Below are positions 12,616 through 27,872 of a stretch of 43,985 bases of DNA, piece after piece; positions within the stretch are counted from its first letter, which is position 1; every line of letters begins with the position of its first letter. The translations under genes and the position numbers were made by a program. Source of the stretch: Bacillota bacterium (GTDB lineage: Bacteria > Bacillota > Dethiobacteria > DTU022 > UBA8154); NCBI GenBank assembly GCA_012728375.1, contig JAAYFF010000023.1, positions 1 to 43,985 of the forward strand. Reading direction: 5' to 3'. The notes under the pieces were generated by a model, which saw only the letters and a program-made list of their open reading frames with translations, was not told the DNA's origin and made no database searches.

Positions 12616-12660
12616 ATTAGGCATAGTAACAAAGCAATAATAGAAAGGGTTGGTTAATGA

Positions 12661-12981
12661 ATGCTGACAGTAACTCCGGCAGCAGTAGAAGAATTTAAAT
12701 CATTTTTAAAACAGGTGGATAAGGAAGATTGCTACATTCGAATTTTTATTAATGGTATGGGCTGAGGCGGGCCTAGTTTCGCTCTGGCTCTGGAAGAGTC
12801 GGTAAAAGGGCAGGATCATCTGGAGGAAAAAGATGGGATTTCTTTTATTTACGATAACAAAATTTCTCCACATTTAAATGATGTAATTATTGATTTCCAT
12901 CTTGCTCCGCAGCGAGGTTTTTCCATTCGAAGGGTAGGGCAGGATTCACCGGGTTGCGGATCTTGCAGCAGTTGTGATTGA
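12661..12981 (+). CDS. HesB/IscA-like selenoprotein (UGA = Sec35)
   Basis: Reading from the ATG at 12661 gives an open frame of 106 residues if the TGA at 12763-12765 is decoded as selenocysteine. The context is I-N-G-M-G-U-G-G-P-S-F-A-L-A-L, the exact pattern of known HesB-like selenoproteins. Translation continues without break to a C-terminal P-G-C-G-S-C-S-S-C-D with C99, C102 and C105. In IscA/HesB proteins the corresponding three cysteines hold iron or an Fe-S cluster, so Sec35 replaces the first ligand. A hairpin with SECIS features follows the TGA. AAAGGG precedes the start by 11 bases. An ordinary gene finder would split or miss it. Decoding needs SelA, SelB, tRNA-Sec and SelD elsewhere in the genome. 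Confidence 0.88.
12786..12800 (+). promoter_or_regulatory. Candidate bacterial SECIS hairpin
   Basis: GGCTCT (12786-12791) pairs with AGAGTC (12795-12800), including one G-U pair, around a three-base GGA loop. The loop starts 26 bases after the UGA and has a G first, which fits the accepted bacterial SECIS pattern. An alternative hairpin, GGGCC/GGCTC (12769-12790, bulged U74), is closer to the UGA (loop 11 bases away) and fits less well. Confidence 0.6.
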
Positions 12982-13125: not shown

Positions 13126-13830
13126 TTATTCGCCCAGATACGATTTCCGGACATCATCATTTTCCAGCAGGGAGGAAGCATTATCCTGCATGACAATTCT
13201 GCCTGTTTCCAAAACATAACCCTTCTGCGCGGTTTTAAGTGCCATCTGGGCGTTTTGTTCCACCAGGAGTATGGTAGTTCCCTGGCTATTTATTTCTTCG
13301 ATTATCTGAAAAATTTCTTTAACGATCATTGGGGCAAGGCCCATGGACGGCTCATCGAGGAGCAAAAGCCTGGGCCTGGACATAAGAGCGCGTCCCATGG
13401 CGAGCATTTGCTGTTCGCCTCCGCTGAGCGTTCCTGCCAGTTGCTTTTCACGACCCTTTAGCTGGGGAAAAATATGAAAAACCTTTTCCAGGTCGTTTTT
13501 AATTTCACGTTTATCAGTCCTGCTGAAAGCTCCCATTTCCAAGTTTTCCATAAGCGTCATCTGGGGAAATATTCGTCTTCCCTCGGGCACATGGGAAATT
13601 CCCATTTTGACGATATTATGAGGAGGGACCCCCGTAATATCCCGGGAGCAGAAAGTAACCCTCCCCCGGGCTGGTTTTAAAAGGCCGGAAATTGTTAACA
13701 AAGTAGTTGTTTTTCCTGCTCCGTTAGAACCTATCAGAGTAACAATTTCTCCCTCCTCGACTTTTAAATTAATTTCTTTCAAAGCCTGGATATTGCCATA
13801 ATATGTGGATATTCCTTCAACTGTAAGCAA
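13126..13830 (-). CDS. livF: Branched-chain amino-acid ABC transporter ATPase LivF
   Basis: This 234-aa ABC ATPase is of the LivF type. It has Walker A GSNGAGKT at about 34-41, a Q-loop region, signature LSGGEQQML, Walker B LLLLDEPSMGLAP and switch histidine-like LLVEQNA. It powers import with LivG through the LivHM channel. The TTG at 13830 is chosen because GGAGGAGG stands about 10 bases upstream and the length then matches the family; the open frame continues 42 codons further without homology. It is the last gene of a five-gene operon. Confidence 0.92.
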   Translation of the reverse strand: MLTVEGISTYYGNIQALKEINLKVEEGEIVTLIGSNGAGKTTTLLTISGLLKPARGRVTFCSRDITGVPPHNIVKMGISHVPEGRRIFPQMTLMENLEMGAFSRTDKREIKNDLEKVFHIFPQLKGREKQLAGTLSGGEQQMLAMGRALMSRPRLLLLDEPSMGLAPMIVKEIFQIIEEINSQGTTILLVEQNAQMALKTAQKGYVLETGRIVMQDNASSLLENDDVRKSYLGE

Positions 13831-13864
13831 GTTGCTTTTGCCTCCTCCAATTATTAAATGCAGC

Positions 13865-14650
13865 CTACACTGAATCCCCCAGGTAAGCCCTAATAACTGC
13901 TTCGTTTCTCTGAATTTCACTTGGCCGGCCTTCGGCGATTTTTTTCCCGTAATCAAGCACTGCCACTTTTTCAGAAATACCCATTACTACTTTCATATCG
14001 TGTTCAATGAGCAAAATGGTTTTTTCCATTTCGTCCCTGATACGTGAGATGAGTTTCATTAACTCCATTGTTTCCTGCGGGTTCATACCGGCTGCAGGTT
14101 CATCCAGCAGCAAAAGCTCCGGTTCAGCCGCGAGAGCTCGGGCAATTTCCAGAAGCCGTTGCTCACCATATGGCAGGTTGCGTGCTTTCTCTTTTTCTTT
14201 ACTGCCCAAACCTACGAAAGCCAGCAGCTCGCGGGCTTTTTTTCTGGCTTCGGCTTCCTCCCGTTTGTTTCCGGGGAGGCAAAAAACGGTGGAAACAAGT
14301 CCTCCGTGCAGGCGAGCATGCATTCCAAGCAGGACATTATCCAACACGCTCATCATCCCGAATAAGCGGATATTTTGAAAGGTTCTCGCTATACCTTTTT
14401 CCGTAATCTTGTAGGGCTTCAGCCCATTTATTTTTTCATTTCGAAAATAGAGAGACCCGCTGGTGGGCTCGTAATGACCGGTAATCAAGTTAAAAAGAGT
14501 GGTTTTCCCGGCTCCATTTGGACCGATTAACCCCACAATTTCTTTCTTGCTGATATCGAGGTTAACGCTGTCCACCGCTTTCAGGCCGCCGAAATGGCGG
14601 CTCACTTCATTAATTTCGAGAATTGTGCTATTCTTTTCAGCAGGCTGCAT
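13865..14650 (-). CDS. livG: Branched-chain amino-acid ABC transporter ATPase LivG
   Basis: This 261-aa ABC ATPase of the LivG type has Walker A GPNGAGKT, the LivG-specific GIARTFQNIRLF segment, the signature NLPYGEQRLLEIARAL, Walker B LLLLDEPAAGMNP and switch LIEHDM. It partners LivF at the cytoplasmic face of LivHM. The ATG at 14650 follows AAAAGGGG by 10 bases; an open extension upstream to 14692 has no better site. The gene is 34 bases before livF. Confidence 0.92.
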   Translation of the reverse strand: MQPAEKNSTILEINEVSRHFGGLKAVDSVNLDISKKEIVGLIGPNGAGKTTLFNLITGHYEPTSGSLYFRNEKINGLKPYKITEKGIARTFQNIRLFGMMSVLDNVLLGMHARLHGGLVSTVFCLPGNKREEAEARKKARELLAFVGLGSKEKEKARNLPYGEQRLLEIARALAAEPELLLLDEPAAGMNPQETMELMKLISRIRDEMEKTILLIEHDMKVVMGISEKVAVLDYGKKIAEGRPSEIQRNEAVIRAYLGDSV

Positions 14651-14758
14651 GCACAAACAACCCCTTTTCCAAGCATTGCCGCTAAGGCTCAAAATCTTTT
14701 TTCTAGATCTAGATATTGATATATAAAAAGTTAATGCCCGTTCTTTTGTAATGTTTCT

Positions 14759-15646
14759 TTACTTATTGCGGCGAAAAAGTTTAATTTTTGTAAATAACGT
14801 TTTCCTTCTTTTTAAAGAACGGCCTCCGGTTTGCCCGATGCTTTCACCCAGCAACCCTTGCGGTCTTGCCCGCATCATCAGCACCAGGATCGCACCGTAA
14901 ACCAGTAGCCGGTATTCGGCTCCGGCTCTGAGCAGCTCAGGAATGGCAGTTAATGCGGTGGCACCAATTATGGCTCCCCACATATTTCCCAGCCCCCCAA
15001 GTACTACCATGCATAATTGTTCGATGGAGCGCATAAAACCGAAGACGTTTGGATGAATATAACGGAAATAGTGGGCAAACAGCCCGCCGCCAAGACCTGC
15101 AAAAAAGGCCCCGACTCCAAAGGCCAGAGTTTTATAATAGGTTGTGTTTATTCCCATAGATTCCGCTGCAGTCTCATCTTCCCTGATAGCAATCAGGGCA
15201 CGCCCAACCCGGGAATTTATAATACGCTGCAGGACGAAAAGTGAAAGGAGGGTAACACCTATTACCCATAAAAGAGTCGTCTCTTTAGGAATTCCCCGCA
15301 GTCCGACAGCTCCGCCGGTAATCTTCAGGTTTAAAAAAATTATCCTAATAATTTCGCCGAAGCCAAGGGTCGCGATTGCCAGATAATCTCCTTTTAGCCG
15401 TAGAGTGGGGATGCCAATCAGAATACCAAATAATCCGGCGACTGCTGCACCCAAAAGCAGAGAGACTATAAATGGCAGACCCGTCTGCAAAGTGACAATT
15501 GCCGAAACATAAGCACCCAGGCTCATAAAAGCAGCATGTCCGATGGATAATTGGCCTGTATAACCAACAACCAAATTCAAGCTTGACGCCATAATAATAT
15601 TAATCCCGACCAGAATAATTATTTGCAAATAATAAGCACTTATCAA
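14759..15646 (-). CDS. livM: Branched-chain amino-acid ABC transporter permease LivM
   Basis: This polytopic permease of about 295 residues carries the LivM motifs LVVGYTGQLSIGHAAF near the N-terminus and LRLKGDYLAIATLGFGEI, the family EAA-like cytoplasmic region, and VVLGGLGNMWGAIIGA. The start is uncertain: TTG at 15646 has AGGTGG eight bases upstream, while GTG at 15658 lies inside that site. A Lys/Arg-rich cytoplasmic tail of about 25 residues is present. The gene lies between livH and livG. Confidence 0.9.
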   Translation of the reverse strand: MISAYYLQIIILVGINIIMASSLNLVVGYTGQLSIGHAAFMSLGAYVSAIVTLQTGLPFIVSLLLGAAVAGLFGILIGIPTLRLKGDYLAIATLGFGEIIRIIFLNLKITGGAVGLRGIPKETTLLWVIGVTLLSLFVLQRIINSRVGRALIAIREDETAAESMGINTTYYKTLAFGVGAFFAGLGGGLFAHYFRYIHPNVFGFMRSIEQLCMVVLGGLGNMWGAIIGATALTAIPELLRAGAEYRLLVYGAILVLMMRARPQGLLGESIGQTGGRSLKRRKTLFTKIKLFRRNK

Positions 15647-15710
15647 CTGCCTTTCCACCTACTTTATCATTAAAATCGGCAACAAGCATGCTTTTAAAGA
15701 AGAAAAAATG

Positions 15711-16583
15711 CTAAACTTTTTCCTGAATGGCGCTGCCCACCAGGCCGGCGGGTTTAAATAACAGGACAAGTATAAGAATGGCAAATGCAGCAGCATCGCG
15801 GTATTGTGAAGAAATATATGCTGCGGCCATAACCTCGGCGATACCGAGTAAAAGTCCTCCAAGCATGGCTCCGGGAATTCTTCCAATACCTCCTAATACC
15901 GCAGCCACAAAACCCTTTAAGCCAGGCATCAGGCCCATAGTGGGTGTTACTGTCCGGAAGTAAATTCCTACCATTACTCCTGCTGCCGCTCCCAGGGCTG
16001 ACCCAATTAGAAAGGTAATGGAGATGATTTGATTGACATTTACCCCCATCAGACTTGCTGTATCTATATCCTGGGCAGCAGCACGCATTGCTTTCCCGAT
16101 TTTTGTCTTTTGAATAAAAAAAGTTAGGCCTATCATAAGCAGGAATGAAATAGCAAGGATTATAATTTCGAGCTTAGAAATGGTCAGTAACGTAGATTGG
16201 TAAACCCGAGGAGTGAAAGGACTTGGAAAAGTATAAGGCCGGGCGCCCATAATTAACAGTGCCAGATTCTGCAAGAAGATGGAGGCACCGATAGCGCTGA
16301 TTAAAGCCGCAAGACGTGTAGAGCGGCGAAGGGGCCTGTAGGCTAAATACTCTAAAGTAAGGCCGACAAGACCTGCAAAAGCCATGGCCAGTAAAAAGGC
16401 CAGAAAAAAAGGAACGTCGTAGAAAACAACCAGGATCATGCCGGCAAAGGCTCCAAACATGTAAATTTCACCATGCGCGAAATTTATTAACATGATGATT
16501 CCATAAACCATGGTATAGCCAAGAGCAATAAGGGAGTAAATACTCCCGAGGATAATACCGTTAACGAGCTGCTGTACAAACAT
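15711..16583 (-). CDS. livH: Branched-chain amino-acid ABC transporter permease LivH
   Basis: This 290-aa permease has about eight membrane segments and the LivH signature GYTMVYGIIMLINFAHGEIYM, plus MRAAAQDIDTASLMGVNVN and VLGGIGRIPGAMLGG. With LivM it forms the import channel. The ATG has a GGTGGGG site three bases upstream of CAATG. It is followed after 64 bases by livM and preceded by livK across a terminator-like hairpin that may reduce transcription of the membrane genes relative to the binding protein. Confidence 0.92.
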   Translation of the reverse strand: MFVQQLVNGIILGSIYSLIALGYTMVYGIIMLINFAHGEIYMFGAFAGMILVVFYDVPFFLAFLLAMAFAGLVGLTLEYLAYRPLRRSTRLAALISAIGASIFLQNLALLIMGARPYTFPSPFTPRVYQSTLLTISKLEIIILAISFLLMIGLTFFIQKTKIGKAMRAAAQDIDTASLMGVNVNQIISITFLIGSALGAAAGVMVGIYFRTVTPTMGLMPGLKGFVAAVLGGIGRIPGAMLGGLLLGIAEVMAAAYISSQYRDAAAFAILILVLLFKPAGLVGSAIQEKV

Positions 16584-16621
16584 TGCCCCACCTCAATATT
16601 TTTATAAAAGCTTGTTTTCCG

Positions 16622-16660
16622 AAAAGAGGGGCAGGGTAAAAACTAACCTGCCCCTTTTCC
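16622..16660 (-). terminator. Hairpin after livK
   Basis: On the minus strand GGGGCAGG and CCTGCCCC pair perfectly, extended by AAAAG and CTTTT around an 11-base loop. It stands between livK and livH. It may be an intercistronic attenuator or mRNA stabiliser that yields more binding protein than permease, a common arrangement in such operons. Confidence 0.65.
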
Positions 16661-16667
16661 TTAATTA

Positions 16668-17846
16668 TTAGCGCAGCCGCTGGAAGGTGCCATTCTCGAC
16701 TTTAAGAATTAGCACGTCTTTAATTGTATCTCCTTCTTCGTCAATACTCGTTAAACCGGTAATTCCGGGAAAATCTTTTGTTTGTGCCAAACCCTCCCGG
16801 ATACTTTCACGATCCGTACCGTATTTCTTCATGGCTTCAATGACAATGCGCGTTGCATCGTAAGCTTGAGCTGCAAACATATCGGGTTCTTCGCCAAAAA
16901 GTTCTGTGTACCTGGTTACAAAAGATTGAACGACAGGGTTCGGATCTGCTGAAAAGAAACCGGCTGTAAAAATGGCCCCTTCAACAGCTTGTTCACCGAT
17001 TTCCACTAAAACAGGAGAATAGAAACCGTCCGCACCAAGGAGCTGCGCTGAAATGCCCTGCTCAGCCGCCTGTTGCGCTATCTTGCCTGCTTCCGTATAA
17101 TAACCGGCAATGAAGATAGCATCCGGATTTTTTTGCTGGATAGATGTCAGCTGGGGACGGAAATGCTCATCGCCGTCCATAAAAGCTTCCACGGCAACAA
17201 CTTCGGCTTTCTCTTTGGCTGTTGCTTCAAAGGCATCCTTCAAAGCCACGCCGTAGTCATTGTTGGTATAAAGGATAGCGAAGCGTTTAAAGCCAAGTTC
17301 CGCAATTGCGTATTCAGCCAGCTGAGAAGCTTGGACCTCGTCGGAAAGACAGTTGCGGAAAAGATAAGGGTTGCCCACCGTCAGGTCTGTGGCTGTGGAG
17401 GAAGGTGAAATTGTCGGCACTTTACCTTCCATAACGATTGGGCCTCCTGCAGCTGTTTCCGAACTTAAAACAGCGCCGACTATTACATTGACACCGTCCT
17501 GATCAATAAGTTTGGAAAAAGCGTTGGCTGCCTTGGACCAGTCACCTTCGCTGTCTTCGGAAACAAGAACAAGGTTTACTCCCGGTATTTCTTTGTTTTC
17601 GTTTGCTTCTTCCAAAGCAATTTGTACTGCGTTGCGAACGCTCTCTCCATACGTTGCCGCGCCACCGGTTAAAGGACCTACTGTGCCGACTTTAACATCG
17701 ACTGTTTCTTCTGAAGTGCCTTCGGATGCCTCATCTCCTGCTCCCTCCGGCTCGGAAGCAGGCTGTGAAGTACCGCATCCAGCGGCAAGCATCAGAATCA
17801 TGCTTAAAGCAACCATAATAACTAGTGCCAAACGATACTTTTTCAC
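16668..17846 (-). CDS. livK: Branched-chain amino-acid binding lipoprotein LivK/LivJ
   Basis: This 392-aa periplasmic-binding-protein type I (Peripla_BP_6) lipoprotein has a signal peptide ending in the lipobox LAAGC (Cys24). An acidic Ser/Glu linker follows, then the receptor domain beginning VKVGTVGPLTGGAATYGESVRNA. It captures the ligand outside the membrane for LivHMGF. The family also includes binders of amides, urea or aromatic acids, so Leu/Ile/Val is the likely but not proven substrate. It starts at GTG after a GGGGG run. It is the first gene of the operon. Confidence 0.93.
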   Translation of the reverse strand: MKKYRLALVIMVALSMILMLAAGCGTSQPASEPEGAGDEASEGTSEETVDVKVGTVGPLTGGAATYGESVRNAVQIALEEANENKEIPGVNLVLVSEDSEGDWSKAANAFSKLIDQDGVNVIVGAVLSSETAAGGPIVMEGKVPTISPSSTATDLTVGNPYLFRNCLSDEVQASQLAEYAIAELGFKRFAILYTNNDYGVALKDAFEATAKEKAEVVAVEAFMDGDEHFRPQLTSIQQKNPDAIFIAGYYTEAGKIAQQAAEQGISAQLLGADGFYSPVLVEIGEQAVEGAIFTAGFFSADPNPVVQSFVTRYTELFGEEPDMFAAQAYDATRIVIEAMKKYGTDRESIREGLAQTKDFPGITGLTSIDEEGDTIKDVLILKVENGTFQRLR

Positions 17847-19001: not shown

Positions 19002-19086
19002 GTCGGGGTGGCGGAACAGGCAGACGCGCACGTTTGAGGGGCGTGTGGTGAATACCATGTGGGTTCAAGTCCCATCCCCGACACCA
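19002..19086 (+). tRNA. tRNA-Leu (anticodon GAG)
   Basis: The acceptor stem GTCGGGG pairs with CCCCGAC, with encoded A-CCA. The anticodon stem CACGT/GCGTG carries loop TTGAGGG with GAG. A long variable arm (GTGGTGAATACCAT) marks a class II tRNA. The T arm reads GTGGGTTCAAGTCCCAT. Confidence 0.95.
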
Positions 19087-24892: not shown

Positions 24893-24970
24893 GGAGCCGT
24901 GGTGTAGTCCGGTCAACATGCCGGCCTGTCAAGCCGGAGATCGCGGGTTCAAGTCCCGTCGGCTCCGCCA
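24893..24970 (+). tRNA. tRNA-Asp (GTC)
   Basis: GGAGCCG pairs with CGGCTCC; anticodon loop CTGTCAA carries GTC; encoded GCCA end. First gene of the cluster. Confidence 0.95.
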
Positions 24971-24976
24971 GATCTT

Positions 24977-25052
<76 letters not shown>

Positions 25053-25057
25053 TTTTT

Positions 25058-25132
25058 GCGGAAGTGGCTCAGTGGTAGAGCATCGCCTTGCCAAGGCGAG
25101 GGCCGCGGGTTCGAATCCCGTCTTCCGCTCCA
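25058..25132 (+). tRNA. tRNA-Gly (GCC)
   Basis: GCGGAAG pairs with CTTCCGC; anticodon loop TTGCCAA carries GCC; encoded TCCA end. Confidence 0.95.
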
Positions 25133-25140
25133 TTTTTTAT

Positions 25141-25214
25141 GGCGACATAGCCAAGTGGTAAGGCAGAGGACTGCAAATCCTTTACCCCCGGTTCGAATCC
25201 GGGTGTCGCCTCCA
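25141..25214 (+). tRNA. tRNA-Cys (GCA)
   Basis: GGCGACA pairs with TGTCGCC; anticodon loop CTGCAAA carries GCA; encoded TCCA end. Confidence 0.95.
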
Positions 25215-25223
25215 TTTTTTTTT

Positions 25224-25314
25224 GCCGGAGTGGCGGAACAGGCAGACGCAAGGGACTTAAAATCCCTCGATCTTTAATAAGATCGTACCGGTTCAAGTCC
25301 GGTCTCCGGCACCA
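25224..25314 (+). tRNA. tRNA-Leu (TAA)
   Basis: GCCGGAG pairs with CTCCGGC; anticodon loop CTTAAAA carries TAA; a long variable arm (CGATCTTTAATAAGATCG) and encoded ACCA end are present. Last gene of the cluster. Confidence 0.95.
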
Positions 25315-27797: not shown

Positions 27798-27872
27798 GGG
27801 TCCTTAGCTCAGTGGGAGAGCGCTTCCTTGACGCGGAAGAGGCCGTGTGTTCGATCCACACAGGACCCACCA
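27798..27872 (+). tRNA. tRNA-Val (GAC)
   Basis: GGGTCCT pairs with AGGACCC; stem CTTCC/GGAAG carries loop TTGACGC with anticodon GAC; encoded ACCA end. Confidence 0.95.

Follow-up and report, generated by a model that had tools for sequence, protein, structure and literature searches.

The window (the whole 43,985-nucleotide stretch of DNA that was analyzed) contains a gene for a small protein of the IscA/HesB kind in which selenocysteine (Sec) is predicted to replace a metal-ligand Cys (Table 1). Judged by comparison with its relatives, this is a real gene, and its product is almost certainly a HesB-like selenoprotein. We consider it best explained as a stand-alone A-type Fe-S carrier with Sec in place of the first metal-ligand Cys, and Fe-S carriage is its probable function, based on the modeled fold. 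The nearest named record is from a Dethiobacter alkaliphilus MAG (G004), and the window therefore comes from a Dethiobacteraceae-type Bacillota.

The reading frame starts with the ATG at 12661, passes through an in-frame TGA at codon 35 and ends with a TGA at 12979-12981, so the natural stop codon of the gene is UGA too. Read-through translation gives MLTVTPAAVEEFKSFLKQVDKEDCYIRIFINGMGUGGPSFALALEESVKGQDHLEEKDGISFIYDNKISPHLNDVIIDFHLAPQRGFSIRRVGQDSPGCGSCSSCD, with GMGUGGPSF surrounding the UGA and GCGSCSSCD at the C-terminus. The HesB/IscA domain (PF01521) is recognized at 30.0 bits (cut-off 26.3). In a 16-member alignment of the close family, Cys99 never varies and Cys102 hardly does, and a GAAAGG-like stretch is found 5′ of most homologues.

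Table 1. Features of the selenoprotein locus, in window coordinates
Feature	Position	Strand	Evidence
Ribosome-binding site (Shine-Dalgarno) GAAAGGG, 11 nt 5′ of ATG	12643..12649	+	Sequence
HesB/IscA-like selenoprotein gene, 106 aa, predicted Sec at residue 35	12661..12981	+	Read-through translation; Pfam PF01521; homologues with the same UGA
UGA predicted to encode Sec35, aligned with the first ligand Cys of IscA	12763..12765	+	Codon counts in homologues; alignment to AQ_1857 and HI1723
bSECIS hairpin CUGGCUCU-GGA-AGAGUCGG, 8-bp stem, GGA apical loop at 12792-12794	12784..12802	+	Homologue comparison
C-terminal Cys99-GS-Cys102-SS-Cys105, presumed metal/cluster co-ligands	12955..12975	+	16-member alignment

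Of 23 genomes from the same family, 17 contain homologues (19 genes), each homologue having a single internal TGA at the equivalent of codon 35. Named genomes were scanned with patterns that leave the Sec codon free, and among the best 80 relatives the codon is TGA in 67, TGT in seven and TGC in six (13 Cys). The original observation, that conserved residues lie on both sides of the UGA, is borne out by these homologues, all of which have UGA or Cys at this codon, with no other stop or residue, followed by conserved protein downstream. An in-frame UGA at the first conserved Cys, together with Cys homologues, is characteristic of HesB-like selenoproteins. Across eight homologue pairs, pN after the UGA is 0.04-0.23 and pS is 0.30-0.75, much like the values before it, and by this measure purifying selection acts upstream as well as downstream of the UGA. 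On the protein tree the Sec/Cys label requires six changes (counted without direction), and at least four of these changes are forced by well-supported branches.

Standard ORF calling (table 11) omits the gene, since the frame ends at 12765, as would be the case if the UGA were an ordinary stop, leaving a pseudogene or a 34-amino-acid peptide with a downstream frame that is open by chance. We rejected this reading as extremely improbable; it is refuted by the conservation data (UGA or Cys in all homologues, purifying selection after the UGA and a conserved SECIS element), and the genome has complete Sec machinery. A sequencing or assembly error that turned UGU or UGC into UGA would fit the 13 of 80 homologues that have one of these Cys codons. 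This explanation was also rejected, with only a minute probability left to it, because the same UGA recurs in 17 genomes of the family and is accompanied by a hairpin that Cys homologues tend to lose.

The hairpin has a 3-nt loop with G first, a spacing of 26 nt from UGA to loop, and a folding energy of -8.2 kcal/mol. All of its values are within the published ranges for bSECIS elements (a 4-16 bp stem, a 3-9 nt loop with G within its first two positions, a distance of 16-37 nt to the UGA and energy <= -7.5 kcal/mol; PMC13188914). Taken alone it is only moderately unusual, as an equal energy is attained at 1.3% of the window's TGA triplets and in 2.7% of synonymous recodings of the peptide. 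The whole 53-nt stretch folds no better than shuffled sequences (z +0.73), and the case for a SECIS element therefore rests on comparison. A qualifying hairpin of <= -3 kcal/mol is found in 65 of 67 Sec homologues versus two of 13 Cys homologues (Mann-Whitney p ~2e-6; these counts, like the stem-codon counts below, ignore relatedness), and nine of the 13 have no qualifying hairpin. A hairpin with a G-first loop 26 bases 3′ of the UGA had been noted in the window, and it was found as described and is kept in nearly all Sec homologues.

The apical loop is GGA in all 68 Sec sequences, including that of the window, and in Sec genes the stem shows almost no variation at synonymous sites (GCT or ACT, CTG, GAG). 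Eleven codons past the UGA, every one of the 68 Sec sequences has GAG for Glu, whereas the third base of this codon is A (GAA) in seven of 13 Cys homologues. In the nine sequences that have Thr ACT where others have Ala GCT, base pairing is always preserved, as A-U. As compared across relatives, the joint conservation of the UGA, the downstream protein and the hairpin is far beyond chance. Two Cys homologues, L049 (6001-6323) and L052 (6001-6345), are from Peptococcaceae and Desulfosporosinus. L049, one of the two Cys homologues at <= -3 kcal/mol, and weakly L052 (-0.7) have the same GGA-loop hairpin. These look like remnant SECIS elements and suggest conversion from Sec to Cys; a remnant SECIS was reported earlier for Desulfitobacterium hafniense (PMC1794560). 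The Rfam model SECIS_1 has no match in the genome, and none in the control genomes either, and cmscan of the locus gave chance matches only. A scan of the window for UGA read-through with a SECIS-like hairpin returned four more frames, none convincing as protein by eye.

The genome encodes the machinery for Sec decoding. On contig C72, profile searches found selB (389 bits, above its cut-off) in one cluster with selA (600 bits) and a tRNA-Sec gene with anticodon TCA (72.9 bits versus a gathering score of 47), which was also called independently by ARAGORN. The selD gene is on contig C66 (367 bits; locus L117, 45781-46710, - strand) and has one in-frame TGA; the selenophosphate synthetase SelD is probably itself a selenoprotein. 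The claim that the organism decodes UGA as Sec had pointed to the sel genes, with selB and selC as the decisive ones. We found selA, selB, selC and selD, the set that goes with a HesB-like selenoprotein. It is therefore highly probable that UGA is read as Sec in this genome, and Sec decoding by the organism is strongly supported. At the UGA (12763), SelB bound to the GGA-loop hairpin would deliver Sec-tRNA(Sec) to the ribosome, and translation would then continue to 12978.

HesB-like selenoproteins were catalogued in 2006 with 11 members (PMC1794560) and are also covered in PMC13188914; mutagenesis combined with 75Se labelling identified one from Methanococcus maripaludis (PMC11097638). The window clade resembles them in having Sec at the conserved HesB Cys followed by a GGP motif, a bSECIS element within the coding region, hosts among anaerobic Bacillota and deltaproteobacteria, and Cys homologues with remnant SECIS elements. 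It differs from them in falling under the curated thresholds. The window protein scores 65.4 with NF038090 (IscA_HesB_Se; cut-off 85) and 44.9 with TIGR01911 (HesB_rel_seleno; cut-off 66.35); a deltaproteobacterial homologue scores 121 with NF038090, and all 16 clade members match this model at E <= 1e-5. Given scores below both curated NCBI cut-offs, the clade forms, on present profiles, a divergent Bacillota (Dethiobacteraceae) branch, related to the curated set but outside it; it belongs to a known kind and does not constitute a new one. The window protein also misses all A-type equivalog cut-offs.

Three relatives in the same bacterial family encode a second, paralogous Sec A-type subfamily with the motif DSVTUGGPSxSLALEEP (L032, 1480-1770, - strand; L033, 1216-1509, + strand; L034, 1501-1797, + strand). 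It shares the Sec position (VTUGGPS) and the SECIS hairpin with the window protein, to which it is 28-29% identical, but has lost the C-terminal cysteines, and Sec is its only conserved metal-ligand candidate.

An AlphaFold2 model of the window protein, made from the 16-member alignment, has a mean pLDDT of 84, with a low-confidence C-terminus. In the PDB it matches E. coli IscA best (1s98 and 1r94), with SufA (2d2a) close behind, and the TM score for the best match, 1s98, is 0.77-0.84. The predicted fold of the Sec protein is that of IscA. In alignments with the solved A-type proteins AQ_1857 and HI1723, Sec35 falls on their first conserved Cys, which, with the predicted fold, agrees with the proposal that Sec occupies the first metal-ligand Cys position of IscA. 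The protein is thus like IscA, SufA and ErpA (E. coli; PDB 1s98, 1r94, 1x0g and 2d2a) in fold and first-ligand position. Unlike them, it has Sec for Cys and a C-terminal CxxCxxC (CGSCSSC) instead of CxC, so that the A-type three-Cys ligand set C-x(n)-CxC is absent. It is also ~20-24% identical to them in structural alignments, and its gene lies outside any isc or suf operon.

The neighboring genes are a DUF421 and a DUF4363 gene upstream and, on the opposite strand downstream, a branched-chain amino acid ABC transporter. The neighbors are conserved only with the closest relative (G004) and provide no functional link; in a synteny check of G003, a genome of the same genus, the DUF421 gene had only a 35% identical copy. 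The transporter set (13126-17846, - strand), with two ATPases, two permeases and a binding protein, is unlinked to the selenoprotein. Elsewhere in the window are a cluster of five tRNAs (Asp, Phe, Gly, Cys and Leu; 24893-25314, + strand), a tRNA-Leu at 19002 and a tRNA-Val at 27798.

In the whole genome, PF01521 and TIGR00049 detect only the Sec gene, and both give positive controls in well-known genomes. No Cys-type A-type carrier was found in the 23 genomes of the family, where every A-type hit contains a TGA; these assemblies are incomplete (the window's own genome is 96% complete), so single gaps are possible. The Sec protein thus appears to be the bacterium's only A-type carrier. The SufB/D core domain was not detected in the window's own genome, the only one searched for it apart from the controls, in which the same model was positive in 14 of 14. 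Two full-length IscU/NifU_N proteins are encoded. With two IscU proteins present and both SufB/D and a second A-type carrier missing, the Sec protein most likely covers the entire A-type carrier step. In G003 (97% complete), selB is present but no A-type gene could be detected, and therefore the function is dispensable or the gene lies in an assembly gap.

We propose an IscA-like fold for the protein, which is probably a dimer. Iron or an Fe-S cluster received from an IscU scaffold would be bound by Sec35 together with the C-terminal cysteines and then passed on to client proteins. A role in iron, Fe-S or selenium chemistry, as originally suggested, is inferred from the fold and from the absence of another A-type carrier. 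The C-terminal CxxCxxC in place of CxC, the apparent lack of the gene in G003 and the poorly conserved neighborhood weigh against the carrier reading. The usual role of Sec is in redox chemistry, and it seldom acts simply as a metal ligand. The protein could accordingly be a selenoprotein that carries no Fe-S cluster, with Sec35 and the C-terminal Cys acting in redox or thiol chemistry, or binding selenium, mercury or another metal. The Sec subfamily that keeps Sec while lacking the C-terminal cysteines is compatible with such a role. So is the M. maripaludis result, in which disruption of the HesB-like gene of this archaeon left nitrogen fixation normal (an unpublished observation cited in PMC11097638), and a 2026 review calls the function of HesB-like selenoproteins largely uncharacterized (PMC13188914). 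Nevertheless, the IscA fold, the ligand position and the C-terminal Cys are all kept, Sec and Cys exchange at this position, and the genome has IscU and no other A-type carrier, all of which make a non-carrier role the less expected outcome, though a real possibility.

HesB-like selenoproteins have appeared in catalogues since 2006, with their function still to be proven. In public genomes, genes of this clade have probably gone unannotated or been cut short at the UGA, because the clade falls under current annotation thresholds. As the only detectable A-type carrier, alongside IscU and in the absence of Suf, the Sec form offers a clean setting in which to test Sec as an Fe-S ligand. We suggest only tentatively that the whole A-type carrier step in a bacterial family rests on a selenoprotein. 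If this is true, general Fe-S protein maturation in an organism without Suf would hinge on the supply of selenium and on Sec decoding.
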